Of a DNA stretch of 59,376 bases, positions 47,485 through 58,701 are shown in pieces. Position numbers and translations under genes: made by a program. Origin of the DNA: Pedosphaera sp. (lineage in GTDB: Bacteria > Verrucomicrobiota > Verrucomicrobiia > Limisphaerales > DSYF01); contig JAFMIZ010000001.1 of NCBI GenBank assembly GCA_017853715.1, positions 78,679-138,054 of the forward strand, given 5' to 3'. Numbering within the stretch: position 1 is the stretch's first letter; each line of letters begins with the position of its first letter. The notes beneath the pieces were generated by a model. The model saw only the letters and a program-made list of their open reading frames with translations. It ran no database searches and was not told where the DNA came from.

Positions 47485-50807
<3,323 letters not shown>

Positions 50808-50811
<4 letters not shown>

Positions 50812-51833
50812 GGCTGCACCTGAAGAGGTTGACCATCCAACAGCGTCTGGGCGCCATCCACCACGACGCGTTCTCCGGCAGACAAACCCGAAACAATCTC
50901 AACCTGTCCCAGCTCCTTACGCCCGGTCCTCACCAGCCGCATCTGAGCGGTATCGTTGGTTGCAACGAACACCATCTCCAGCTGGCCCCGCACCACGACG
51001 GCCGATTCGGGCAGGCGCAACGAGGACTTCTCACCCACCGGCACCGCCACGCGCACAAATTGCCCCAAACGGAGGCTTGAGCCACCGGGCAAATCCAGCT
51101 TCACGAGCGACGTTCGACTGGCCGGATCCGCCGACGGCGCCATCTCACTGACAAACGCCTTCACTGGCCTGCTAAGTTCAACACTGTCCACCTCCATGTG
51201 ATCCCCCAGCTTGATCAAGCGAACCAGCCCCTCAGGCACGTTTGCCTCCACACGCAACGCCTCGGGATCCTCCAGCTCCACAATGCCCCGGCCCGGCGCC
51301 GCGATGTCGCCAACCTCAGAAATCTTGCGTGTGATGACGCCGTCGAAGGGAGCGGTGACTTTGGCATAACCCAACATCGTCTCAGCCTCCGTCTGTGCCG
51401 CCTGAGCAATACGCTGGCGAGCCTCGGCTGTGTCATACTCCGCCTTCGTCAGCACATTCTGTTTGATGAGTTCTTGATAACGCGCCAAGTCCCGGTTCGC
51501 CTGCTCCAAGGTTGCCTTGGCTTGGTCCAGACGCGCCTGAACTTCGCGCACATCGAGCTGCGCGATCAAATCCCCCTTCTTCACCAATTGTCCTGCGCTC
51601 ACCGGCAGAGACTCGATCCGACCACCCACGCGCGCTTCGATCACTGCGCGCGTCTTTGAACGCACGGTGCCCACGACTTCTTCCTTCGCCCGCAACATTT
51701 TCGCGGCGGCAACATCCGTTTTCACGGCAGCTGCGGGCAACGAATCATGGCCATGACGTTCGTGCGCAGGTTTGCATCCCACCATCGCCAGCAGCAACAG
51801 TGGGAGAATGCCGATTTGGATTCCTCTCATCAT
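50808..51833 (-). CDS. RND periplasmic adaptor (membrane fusion protein), lipoprotein
   Basis: A 341-residue membrane fusion protein. The lipobox AMVGC places the anchor cysteine at residue 20, after a well-placed ribosome-binding site (GGAG). The segment HERHGHD directly after the anchor is histidine-rich. A lipoyl/beta-barrel plan follows: [11 protein letters not shown]-type strand (seen as [13 protein letters not shown]), a coiled-coil hairpin ([20 protein letters not shown]), then [10 protein letters not shown] and [14 protein letters not shown]. Partner of the downstream RND pump. The operon probably starts with the two small membrane proteins upstream. Confidence 0.92.
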
Positions 51834-51892
51834 AAATCTCCAAAGGTTTTCAGCCGGTATGAACCCGCAGTGGCATCCTCAGCTCAATCACC

Positions 51893-52063
51893 TCAATGCC
51901 GGGCCGCCGCCAACGAGAAAAGCGTGCCCATCGCCGCCCCATAAATCGCCCCGCGCCACCAAGTTGAGGTTAGGGGACAGGTTCCTGACGAACACTGGCC
52001 AAGGTATCCCATCAACGCCCCGATCGCCGCTCCGATGCCAATACCAGTCAGGACCCGCAACAT
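51893..52063 (-). CDS. Small membrane protein, DUF6132-like
   Basis: A 56-residue protein with two hydrophobic segments. It begins MLRVLTGIGIGAAIGALMGY and ends with a second helix (GAIYGAAMGTLFSLAAA). Between them is the motif CSSGTCPL with two cysteines, a C-x4-C pair, which I recognise from the DUF6132 family. It is preceded by a strong ribosome-binding site (AGGGGG). Its start lies inside the 3' end of the DUF2892 gene (16-bp overlap). Role unknown. Confidence 0.75.
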   Translation of the reverse strand: MLRVLTGIGIGAAIGALMGYLGQCSSGTCPLTSTWWRGAIYGAAMGTLFSLAAARH

Positions 52064-52260
52064 GATCCCCCTTTTTTGCCGACACCCAGTTTGCCCAAAA
52101 TGATTTCCGCTGGGCAGAAACCGGTGATTGCCGATTGAATCAAATTGCAGCCGACGAACACGCCGAGCAGCAACCACCATTGGCTGACCCAATGCGCCAG
52201 CGAGATGCTGATCAGCACCATGGTGCCGGCGAGAATACGAATCGCATTTTCCATTTTCAT
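52048..52260 (-). CDS. DUF2892 (YgaP-type) membrane protein
   Basis: A 70-residue protein with two membrane helices (LAGTMVLISISLAHWV and WWLLLGVFVGCNLIQSA) and the conserved end GFCPAEIILGKLG, which is the DUF2892 pattern seen in the membrane part of YgaP. No rhodanese domain is attached. The C-terminus ends KKGGSCCGS, adding two adjacent cysteines. Starts at 52260 or 52254 are possible. An ATG at 52317 lies inside the promoter and is excluded. It is the first gene after the divergent ArsR promoter. Confidence 0.82.
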   Translation of the reverse strand: MKMENAIRILAGTMVLISISLAHWVSQWWLLLGVFVGCNLIQSAITGFCPAEIILGKLGVGKKGGSCCGS

Positions 52261-52310
52261 AAGCTGAATGTGTTTGGATCTAATCTGTGCCACGCCTGAA
52301 CTGAACAACG

Positions 52311-52339
52311 TTGACATAATGACTATATGCTCATATAGT
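52311..52339. promoter_or_regulatory. ArsR-type palindromic operator within divergent promoters
   Basis: ACTATATG-CT-CATATAGT (52322-52339) is a perfect inverted repeat. On the plus strand TTGACA (52311-52316) is followed after 17 bp by TATAGT (52334-52339), a near-consensus promoter for arsR. On the minus strand TATAGT (52322-52327) has TTGCGG 16 bp upstream, giving a promoter for the DUF2892 gene. The palindrome overlaps both -10 elements. Binding there would block both genes at once. Confidence 0.8.
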
Positions 52340-52364
52340 GTTACCGCAAGTCGAATTTGTTTTT

Positions 52365-52709
52365 ATGCCAAAGACGCCCGCCCCCAAAGCATTGTCTGAT
52401 CATGCCCTCGAACTTATCGCCCGGCGTTTTAAGGCGTTGAGTGAATCCAGCCGACTTAGGCTCATCCACACCCTGCAATCGGGCGAGATGAGCGTCGGCG
52501 AACTGGTAGAGGAGACGGGGCTGACGCAGACCAATACCTCGCGTCATTTGCAAGTTCTTGTTGAAACAGGCATCCTCAAGCGTCGAAAAAAGGGGCTGAA
52601 TGTTTACTACGCCATCGCGGATCAAGGTATTTTCGACCTTTGCGAAGCGGTCTGCGGCAGCATTCAGCAACGCCTTGAACGGCACGTTGAAGCGTTTGCG
52701 GGGAACTAA
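52365..52709 (+). CDS. ArsR-family winged-helix repressor
   Basis: A 114-residue dimeric repressor. The helix-turn-helix region is SVGELVEETGLTQTNTSRHLQVLVETG, followed by the wing KRRKKGLNVYY. Metal-site motif ELCVCDL of classic ArsR is missing. Instead two cysteines, C93 and C97 (LCEAVCGS), lie in the last helix, where thiol or metal sensing has been found in related families. It is divergent from the DUF2892 gene and probably represses both from the shared operator. The start at 52365 follows the operator by 25 bp, as expected. Confidence 0.9.
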   Translation: MPKTPAPKALSDHALELIARRFKALSESSRLRLIHTLQSGEMSVGELVEETGLTQTNTSRHLQVLVETGILKRRKKGLNVYYAIADQGIFDLCEAVCGSIQQRLERHVEAFAGN

Positions 52710-52833: not shown

Positions 52834-53952
52834 ATGAACGTGCTCATTGCGACGGCGACGGCCGGGGGGGGACATTTAGCGGCGGCAGCAGCCATCGAGG
52901 AGGCGTGGAAAGCCATACGTCCGCACGACACCGTCGAGAAAATCGACCTCGTCAAATTCTTCTCGCCCTTGCACCGGCGCATCCATGCCGACGGTTACAA
53001 AACCCTGATCGAACATGCCCCGGAGATCTGGGGGATGCTTTTCAGCAAGACAGACGACCCAAAAGTCGTCGTAAAGATGAGCCGCTTGCGCCGCGTCTTC
53101 ACACCCACGTCCACGCTCAAACTGGAACGCCATATCAAACGCACCAAGCCTGATGTGGTCATCTGCACCCACTACTCGCCGATCGAAGTGCTCGACCGCA
53201 TGGGCAAGGACGAAAAAGCGCATCACCCGTTCATCGTGAGTGTGATCACCGACTTTGAAGCACACGCCCTCTGGATGGGGAGCAGCGTGGACCTCTATTG
53301 TGTCGCAGCGGAAGGCACTTCGGCCCGATTGCTGGCGCGCGGAGCCGACAAGCAGAACATCGCCGCCACCGGCATCCCCATTTCCTCCAAGTTCACCAAG
53401 GAAGTGGACGCCAAAGAGGTCCGCCGACGTTACGGCCTGCGGGACGATCAACCCGTCATCCTGCTGCTCGGCGGGGGCTTTGGCTGGGGCCCCATCTCGG
53501 AGACGCTGGCCGAACTGGACAAAATCCCCACGCGGTTTCAGACCATGGTCGTGTGCGGACGCAATGCCGATTTACGCTACGAAGTCGCCGCGCAAGACCG
53601 CCAGCATCCCACGCACGTGCTTGGTTTCGTCTCCAACATGAACGAACTGATGGCCGTGTCCGATATGGTCATCACCAAACCGGGCGGGTTGACCACTTCC
53701 GAAGCCATGGCTAGCGGTTTGCCCATGGCAGTGGTAAATCCCATCCCCGGTCAGGAAGCCGCCAACAGTGATTTCCTGCTGCAAGCCGGGGCGGCCATCA
53801 AGGCGAACCGCGTGGAAGAGATGTCCCACCGCATCACACAACTGCTGGAGACCAAAAAGCTAACGGCTATGGCCAAGGCGGCGCGATCCATCGGGAAACC
53901 CGCCGCCGCCCAGAATGTCTGCGAAGAGGTGCTGCGCCGTGTCCGCAAGTAA
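52834..53952 (+). CDS. MGDG-synthase / MurG-like glycosyltransferase
   Basis: A 372-residue peripheral membrane protein of the GT28 superfamily. The N-terminal half begins LIATATAGGGHLAAAAAIEEAW, the glycine-rich loop of the MGDG_synth domain, which takes diacylglycerol as acceptor in its best-known members. The C-terminal UDP-sugar domain has GGGFGWGPISETLAEL and KPGGLTTSEAMASGLPMAV, the nucleotide-sugar-binding motif. It probably makes a glycolipid, but UDP-galactose versus UDP-glucose cannot be told. It stands alone between arsR and the small orphan gene. Confidence 0.87.
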   Translation: MNVLIATATAGGGHLAAAAAIEEAWKAIRPHDTVEKIDLVKFFSPLHRRIHADGYKTLIEHAPEIWGMLFSKTDDPKVVVKMSRLRRVFTPTSTLKLERHIKRTKPDVVICTHYSPIEVLDRMGKDEKAHHPFIVSVITDFEAHALWMGSSVDLYCVAAEGTSARLLARGADKQNIAATGIPISSKFTKEVDAKEVRRRYGLRDDQPVILLLGGGFGWGPISETLAELDKIPTRFQTMVVCGRNADLRYEVAAQDRQHPTHVLGFVSNMNELMAVSDMVITKPGGLTTSEAMASGLPMAVVNPIPGQEAANSDFLLQAGAAIKANRVEEMSHRITQLLETKKLTAMAKAARSIGKPAAAQNVCEEVLRRVRK

Positions 53953-57345: not shown

Positions 57346-57652
57346 AAGAAACGGATGTGTGCCGAAGGAATCCAGATAACCTTAAAGAGGTTGAATGTTG
57401 AACTTGGGGAAGCTGCTGCGCCTTAAATCTACCGCTTACCACCGCAGCTACTAAACCTTCGGCGAGGGAAAGAGATAGGGTCAAAGCGGCTGCAGCGCAA
57501 CTACTATTTTGTGAGAGAATGGGAGAGGCTGGATAGATCGTGACCCCCTGTGGTCACGCTTAAGGTGATGAGTTACCGCCGCAAGGTTGAGCTGCTGCGC
57601 CTCCTCCGGAGGGGGCGCAGCAGCGGCGCGCAAAACTTGCCATCCTCCCGGC
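57346..57652. other. 307-bp region between rho and the transposase remnant
   Basis: No gene recognised. GCTGCTGCGCCT occurs twice (near 57410 and 57590). The second copy begins an imperfect palindrome whose right arm is GGCGCAGCAGC near 57615. TCAAAGCGGCTGCAGC at 57481 resembles a repeat type known from related genomes. The rho promoter must lie at the left end. Confidence 0.5.
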
Positions 57653-58375
57653 GTGCACAGCACCTACTTTGAACTCTATCGCATGCGCACCGACCGTCAT
57701 TGGCTCCATCAAAAGCTCGTCGCCTTCGCCCGCAAGCACGGTCTCAAGGCCGCCGCCCGGGAGTTCGGCTGTTCCCGCAACACCGTCCGCAAATGGCTTC
57801 GTCGGCATGTCCCCGGCAAGCCTTCCGCGCTGACCGAACTCTCACGCCGCCCCAAACATTGCCCCCATCAAACTTCCACCGCTCTGGCAGGCCAGATCGT
57901 CAAGCTCCGCCAACAAACCGCCTTCGGTGCTGAACGCCTCAAGCACGAGTTCCAGCTGCCCTGTTCCCACAACGCCATCGCCCGCATCATCCGCCAGCAT
58001 CAACTGACCCGTCCGCGCAAGAAAAAGACCGCCACCAAGAAGCAACTTCGTTCGGTCAAATCTCTCCGGCTCCTCTTCGGCCAGCTCTCCACCGATACCA
58101 AGTATTTGCAGGACATTCCCCACCACTGGCCCCAGATGACCCACCTCAAGCTGCCCCGCTTCCAATATACGGCCCGCGAGCCGGTCAGCGGAGCCTGCTT
58201 CACCGGCCATGCCGATGAACTCTCCAAGAGCTACGCCACCTTCCTGGCCGAACAACTCTCGGTCCACCTCGCCGGGCATGGCGTGGATCTCACCCGCCTG
58301 ACCTGGCAGACCGACAACGGGTGTGAGTTCTTGGAGAATCAGGATGAACAGGGCTTGCCAGCTCCAGCCCCGTCC
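57653..58375 (+). pseudogene. Truncated DDE transposase (IS481/IS3-like integrase core)
   Basis: The frame from the GTG at 57653 (or ATG at 57683) encodes a helix-turn-helix (LKAAAREFGCSRNTVRKWL), a HTH-linker region (GAERLKHEFQLPCSHNAIARI) and the start of an rve-type core. The first two acidic residues of the DDE triad are in DTKYLQD and WQTDNGCEF. The third, and about 100 residues after it, are missing. After GCEFLENQDEQGLPAPAP the frame runs into non-similar sequence. No terminal inverted repeats could be found. It is a decayed insertion sequence. Confidence 0.82.
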
Positions 58376-58701
58376 TGGGATGGAGACGGAACCAAAACTT
58401 TACCACGGATGCCCCGGATTAACCTGATGAAAAATGGTTTTCTGAACCTTAAACCGCAGAGGGACCCAGACGAGCGCAGATCAGGCATGAAGTTTGAACC
58501 CCTTGGACCGAACATGACATTCACCGGAAGGTGATTGCCATCCCTCACGTCGCCCCCTCGGTGTCTGCGTCCATCTGTGGTTGAGCTGCCGTTGCCAGGT
58601 TGAACCGCATCGTTCCGGCTTGGGTTCATCGCGCGCGCCGGCGGAACCAACCGATCCGACCAACCCAAAAAAGACCACGGCCCCCCCGACCAGGGACTCC
58701 C
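58376..58701. other. 326-bp debris downstream of the transposase remnant
   Basis: The segment contains CCACGGATGCCCCGGATTAA and, further on, AACCGCAGAGGGACCCAGACG, which are forms of short intergenic repeats common in related genomes. The open frame that runs through it is a by-product of the truncated transposase and encodes no recognisable protein. Confidence 0.5.

Follow-up and report, generated by a model that had tools for sequence, protein, structure and literature searches.

The window, that is the whole stretch of 59,376 nucleotides analysed here, contains a gene for an ArsR/SmtB-family regulator that faces a leftward operon across an inverted repeat. The features of the locus are as follows.

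47485-50811, minus strand: RND permease, 1108 residues, HAE-like (PF00873, 8e-155)
50808-51833, minus strand: RND periplasmic adaptor, a membrane-fusion lipoprotein (TIGR01730, 1e-65)
51893-52063, minus strand: DUF6132 small membrane protein, 56 residues, with CSSGTCPLTSTWWRGA (PF19628, 2e-26)
52048-52260, minus strand: DUF2892 (YgaP-like transmembrane) protein, 70 residues, with GFCPAE and a C-terminal CCGS (PF11127, 4e-11)
52311-52339, plus strand: predicted regulator promoter TTGACA-17-TATAGT, with its -35 element at 52311-52316 and its -10 element at 52334-52339, the right end of the operator
52322-52339, no strand: putative operator, an 8-2-8 inverted repeat ACTATATG-CT-CATATAGT, conserved upstream of regulator orthologues
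52322-52349, minus strand: predicted promoter of the leftward operon TTGCGG-16-TATAGT, with its -35 element at 52349-52344 and its -10 element at 52327-52322, the left end of the operator
52365-52709, plus strand: ArsR/SmtB-family regulator, 114 residues (PF01022, 1e-11; NF033788, 5e-24)

The leftward genes, in the order DUF2892, DUF6132, RND adaptor and RND permease, span positions 47485-52260 on the minus strand. The start of the DUF6132 gene overlaps the end of the DUF2892 gene, and the adaptor and permease genes overlap by 4 bases, as in one operon. A preliminary description of this DNA had placed the two small membrane proteins in these families and had pointed to their CCGS end and CSSGTC motif, respectively; both motifs are present and both family assignments were borne out. 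The DUF2892 start was moved from 52317 to about 52260, as leftward transcription is predicted to start only near 52315, and the regulator start was put at the ATG at 52365 because rightward transcription is predicted to start near 52346; an alternative, longer regulator reading frame with a GTG start would begin within the -10 element. A gene for an MGDG-synthase-like glycosyltransferase (52834-53952) lies further downstream, in the orientation of the regulator gene, with no sign of membership in the system. The reading frame at 57587-58534, which combines a helix-turn-helix with an integrase-like part, looks like what is left of a transposase.

The operator had been taken for a perfect 18-bp palindrome. 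Both 8-nt arms are perfect, but the two central bases break the symmetry, which leaves 16 of 18 positions symmetric. Its overlap with the -10 elements of both facing promoters was correctly described, each -10 element forming one end of the operator. The two promoters are divergent and interleaved, the leftward one being the weaker owing to its poor -35 element (TTGCGG). Four perfect 8-2-8 inverted repeats occur in the window, so symmetry of this kind is not rare, and ~0.9 sigma-70 matches as good as the rightward promoter are expected per 3 kb. Unconvincing when viewed in the window alone, the operator and promoter were judged real because they are conserved in relatives.

Orthologues of the regulator were gathered from relatives, the order and the phylum with a 15-sequence profile (mean column identity of the family in the profile alignment, ~52%), and 82 loci, including that of the window, were studied; many of the genomes are related, and locus counts therefore do not represent independent events. 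Relatives with complete genomes that carry the locus are G130, G138 and G179. An operator match of at least 11/16 was found upstream of the regulator in 63 of the 82 loci, compared with 19 of 2341 (0.8%) other sequence windows from the same loci, and in most loci it lies ~55-130 bases ahead of a fixed regulator codon. The operator-aligned logo is symmetric, with a consensus near ATAGTATATGCGCATATAGT. A minus-strand -35 element matching TTGACA in at least five of six positions accompanies the operator in 25 of these 63 orthologues (4.1 expected from shuffles), and a plus-strand element of the same quality lies to its left in 15 (5.2 expected). The aligned loci thus show that the whole layout, an operator set inside a pair of opposed promoters, is conserved. 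In a genome-wide search, the window operator was the sole place in its own genome with three or fewer mismatches, and the same search in nine relatives returned mostly known loci; in several genomes, the matches did not outnumber those of the reversed control. No wider regulon is therefore claimed.

The regulator contains two cysteines, C93 and C97, which had already been noted and which form a CxxxC motif in helix α5. The motif is present in all 82 orthologous loci of the Verrucomicrobiota; the search profile contained the same cysteines that were scored, a selection effect, but losing both should cost far fewer bits than the margin of the hits over the cut-off. The next-lower scoring group, mostly without C97, was still found by the profile. 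In 51 of the 82 loci, the two are the sole cysteines of the regulator core. Both features on which the preliminary description had staked its proposal, the palindrome and the cysteine pair, are thus conserved.

The AlphaFold monomer model of the regulator (pLDDT 90) has a long α5 helix (residues 87-113) that includes C93 and C97, and the winged-helix α1-α5 core with PF01022 places the protein in the ArsR/SmtB superfamily. The closest solved folds are CzrA, SmtB and their relatives, and SqrR, BigR and HlyU are also among the matches; PADLOC matches reflected generic winged-helix similarity and were dismissed. In SmtB, residues 104 and 106 of the α5 site face residues 120' and 117' of the partner chain, and set on SmtB, C93 would lie near the twofold axis. 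On this modelled analogy, C93, C97 and their dimer partners could form a single four-thiol site. The claim that the classic metal-binding residues of ArsR proteins are missing was confirmed: there is no α3 CXC arsenite/metal site, the regulator having no cysteine before residue 93, and of the SmtB/CzrA-type α5 site DXHX10HXXE/H, D86 is present without H88, H99 or H/E102. With two cysteines, the protein also falls outside the pattern of the α5 As(III) sensors, which have three.

Four dimer thiols in α5 could in principle bind As(III), Cu(I), Zn, Cd or Hg, with the RND system exporting the metal. Such an arsenite or soft-metal sensor would be in keeping with the ArsR family, with the α5 cysteine ligands of atypical As(III) sensors (PMC10509353), with the HERHGHD stretch of the window adaptor and with the CDF or P-type ATPase genes found near relatives on some plasmids. 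It is nevertheless unlikely, as most members lack a third α5 cysteine, no ars or metal-pump genes were seen at the Verrucomicrobiota loci read, the partners are sulfur genes, and the permease, at 216 bits, falls far short of the 701-bit cut-off for heavy-metal RND proteins (CusA/CzcA, TIGR00914). The HERHGHD stretch, to which the preliminary description had drawn attention, is indeed present in the window protein but absent from the adaptor orthologues; it was dropped as a metal clue, and no meaning of it is supported.

An ordinary persulfide repressor of the BigR/SqrR/YgaV type, with one cysteine in α2 and one in α5, would share the fold; BigR ranks among the top PDB matches by sequence, and YgaV, too, adjoins a protein with this transmembrane domain, YgaP. 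The probability of this alternative is nonetheless close to negligible: H35 occupies the position of BigR C42 and Q101 that of C108 (the latter by gapless extension of the alignment), C93 and C97 are the only cysteines, and the score against NF040642 (BigR/SqrR type) is 51.8 bits, far from the cut-off of 155. Membership in that group was rejected on the missing α2/α5 pair.

The genes that accompany the orthologues give the regulator its context. DUF2892 adjoins 54 of the 82 regulators, an RND adaptor and/or pump is encoded in the divergent operon at 45 loci, usually behind DUF2892, and TolC and DUF6132 each lie beside 14. By contrast, when 20 stretches of 11.5 kb, drawn at random from these genomes, were scored for DUF2892, DUF6132, rhodanese/TauE/dioxygenase and RND genes, they gave a single RND pair and none of the others. 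No other partner accompanies the regulator as often as a DUF2892-(DUF6132)-adaptor-pump operon, which argues for the earlier suggestion that the response extends to the RND pump. In other clades of the family, a regulator and operator of the same kind face sulfide/persulfide operons. Six loci have rhodanese-DUF2892, TauE/SafE and a persulfide-dioxygenase-like MBL-rhodanese (L031-L033, L041, L047 and L087), two of which also carry a type III SQR-like flavoprotein (L047 and L087), while L082, L083 and L085 add DsrE. In L036, two YeeE-type sulfur transporters are found inside the RND operon, and the L067 regulator faces a FadL-like gene followed by a molybdopterin oxidoreductase, an NrfD-like subunit and YeeE-like proteins, the first three names being read from the sequence alone. 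The genomic link to sulfur genes that marks BigR/SqrR-type regulators is thus present in sister clades and other phyla, and in the window it consists of DUF2892 only; 25 of the 82 loci have no core sulfur markers nearby, and 24 belong to the 'other' group of the tree. In L027, L054, L060, L098 and L099, the first divergent gene encodes a small secreted protein of ~210 residues with a cysteine-rich tail and no Pfam match. A clade of six (L061, L064, L065, L088, L097 and L100) has lost pump and sulfur neighbours but kept the cysteines and, in most members, an operator that has diverged.

A general sensor of thiol oxidants or electrophiles (peroxide, hypochlorite, quinones) coupled to a drug-type pump, like some MarR-family regulators, has to be weighed against these neighbourhoods. 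Many oxidants can attack a dithiol, organic compounds are the usual substrates of such RND pumps, and MarR-family drug regulators respond to sulfane sulfur too. The partner genes in the sister clades, however, are specific to sulfide and persulfide rather than to peroxide or drugs, and the known peroxide-sensing ArsR protein RexT uses α3 cysteines (PMC10509353), so that we consider such a sensor improbable.

In the tree, RND-linked and sulfur-operon-linked regulators fall largely into separate clades, and the inducer of the pump clade is therefore carried over by homology. This separation leaves room for a real operator and divergent operon whose inducer merely travels with sulfur genes, or for a pump clade that has switched inducer. 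We regard either as very unlikely, since C93/C97 and the operator are unchanged across both clades and since one genome, G182, holds two regulators, L068 and L077, that are sisters in the tree and have near-identical operators (TTGACTATATGCGCAATGAtGCAT and TTGACTATATGCGCAATGAcGCAT). These two operators are the only matches in the 6.4 Mb of that genome, and a reversed-pattern control gave none. L068 faces DUF2892-DUF6132-TolC-adaptor-RND, which is the window operon plus TolC, and L077 faces a fusion of CoA-disulfide reductase and rhodanese. Nothing else connects the pump operon with sulfane sulfur as directly as this pair. The thiol, sulfide or persulfide response at which the preliminary description had hinted gains support from the invariant cysteines, the operator and the sister regulators that face putative persulfide-detoxification operons.

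Relatives in other phyla share parts of this pattern. Plasmid-borne relatives with CxxxC occur in Rubrobacter (LCDLVC), Nostoc (LCELVC) and Chroococcidiopsis (LCEIVC), adjoining MBL dioxygenase-like genes, and several of them also have a DUF442-type sulfurtransferase and TauE nearby; in a Pseudanabaena relative, the second cysteine is replaced by serine, and one copy adjoins DUF2892 and an FAD oxidoreductase. A shorter ArsR group of ~106 residues from the same genomes (L115-L133 except L123) was considered as a negative control and rejected, as it lies by DUF2892 and sulfur genes itself: of the 20 loci in the control set, all have DUF2892, 16 have rhodanese and 10 have CoA-disulfide reductase-like genes; the random stretches were used in its place. 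Its members keep C93, usually not C97, and have an extra cysteine near residue 38, and the group is perhaps another sulfur sensor with a different cysteine pair.

The small membrane proteins carry conserved cysteines of their own. The GFCP cysteine is retained in nearly all free-standing DUF2892 homologues, whose link to sulfur rests on YgaP, and the CxxGxCPL motif (CLL in one case) is retained in 15 of 15 copies of DUF6132, perhaps a small membrane protein that handles sulfur. Searches of plasmids gave no match for DUF6132 and only generic RND adaptors (~30% identity) for the adaptor, and a literature search on DUF6132 yielded no relevant paper. In every DUF6132 copy (window 51893-52063 and 14 homologues), C-x2-G-x-C is followed by a WWRGA stretch, and copies in L036, L098 and L099 lie near YeeE-type sulfur transporters. 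A search of the window's own genome for a persulfide dioxygenase turned up rhodaneses and an MBL match that was weak and broken, but no clear dioxygenase, and export or membrane handling may for this reason be the main answer of this organism to sulfur stress.

The combined results suggest a model in which the protein is probably an autoregulated ArsR-family repressor that is released by reactive sulfur species, one operator closing its own promoter and that of the pump operon. The reduced dimer would bind the palindrome and close both divergent promoters; repression rather than activation is proposed because the operator covers both -10 elements. When sulfide or thiosulfate rises, persulfide or polysulfide would form and, through persulfidation or by way of a sulfur bridge, modify C93 and C97, which lie one α5 turn apart and would be near their counterparts on the other side of the dimer axis. 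The modified dimer would leave the DNA, the small cysteine-bearing membrane proteins and the pump would be made, and these would handle or expel the sulfur stress. Repression, the identity of the inducer, the dithiol chemistry of the cysteines and the cargo of the pump are what we infer in this scheme. A broader proposal, for which we see about even chances, is that ArsR repressors with an α5 CxxxC dithiol beside the dimer axis form a persulfide-sensing class of their own, found in Verrucomicrobiota, Rubrobacter and cyanobacteria. In addition to persulfide detoxification, such repressors would control a DUF2892-DUF6132-RND operon dedicated to efflux, the cargo of which would be either a sulfur species or a product of sulfur stress.

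The family is a well-conserved candidate for a second cysteine arrangement among ArsR regulators of sulfur genes, and it offers a defined operator and a two-cysteine switch. The locus may also connect sulfur stress with two uncharacterised families, free-standing DUF2892 and DUF6132, and with an RND pump that is widespread. Every known ArsR sensor of reactive sulfur falls into one sequence-network cluster (SSN cluster 4) and has the α2/α5 cysteine pair, and the α5-only arsenite sensors with three cysteines form another, SSN cluster 5 (PMC10509353). According to work on Hyphomicrobium, many sulfur-linked ArsR proteins are without the usual cysteine pair and may work differently, and related regulators have RND, TauE and YeeE genes as targets or neighbours (PMC12423496). 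A literature search for an ArsR class with an α5 CxxxC found none, coverage of subscription journals being thin.

Like BigR, SqrR, YgaV, SoxR, sHdrR and HlyU (PMC10509353; PMC12423496), the regulator combines the ArsR fold, a compact dimer and two cysteines with the absence of a metal motif, and it is found beside rhodanese, TauE, YeeE or RND genes, with release by sulfane sulfur expected. We infer that it works like BigR/SqrR, although the membership tests run place it outside that group, where one cysteine is in α2 and one in α5; here, both are in α5, four residues apart, and α2 has none. The atypical As(III) sensors of SSN cluster 5 (PMC10509353) likewise confine their cysteines to α5, but they have three and accompany ars genes, whereas the regulator has two and accompanies sulfur or RND genes. 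RexT is another thiol-based ArsR switch without metal sites, and differs in its vicinal α3 cysteines, its response to peroxide and its thioredoxin genes. The YgaV-YgaP pair of E. coli resembles the window in that an ArsR regulator adjoins a protein with a YgaP-like transmembrane domain; YgaP has a rhodanese domain that the window DUF2892 protein lacks, rhodanese-DUF2892 fusions occurring at sister loci, and YgaV has the BigR cysteine pair, in contrast to the α5 pair of the regulator described here.
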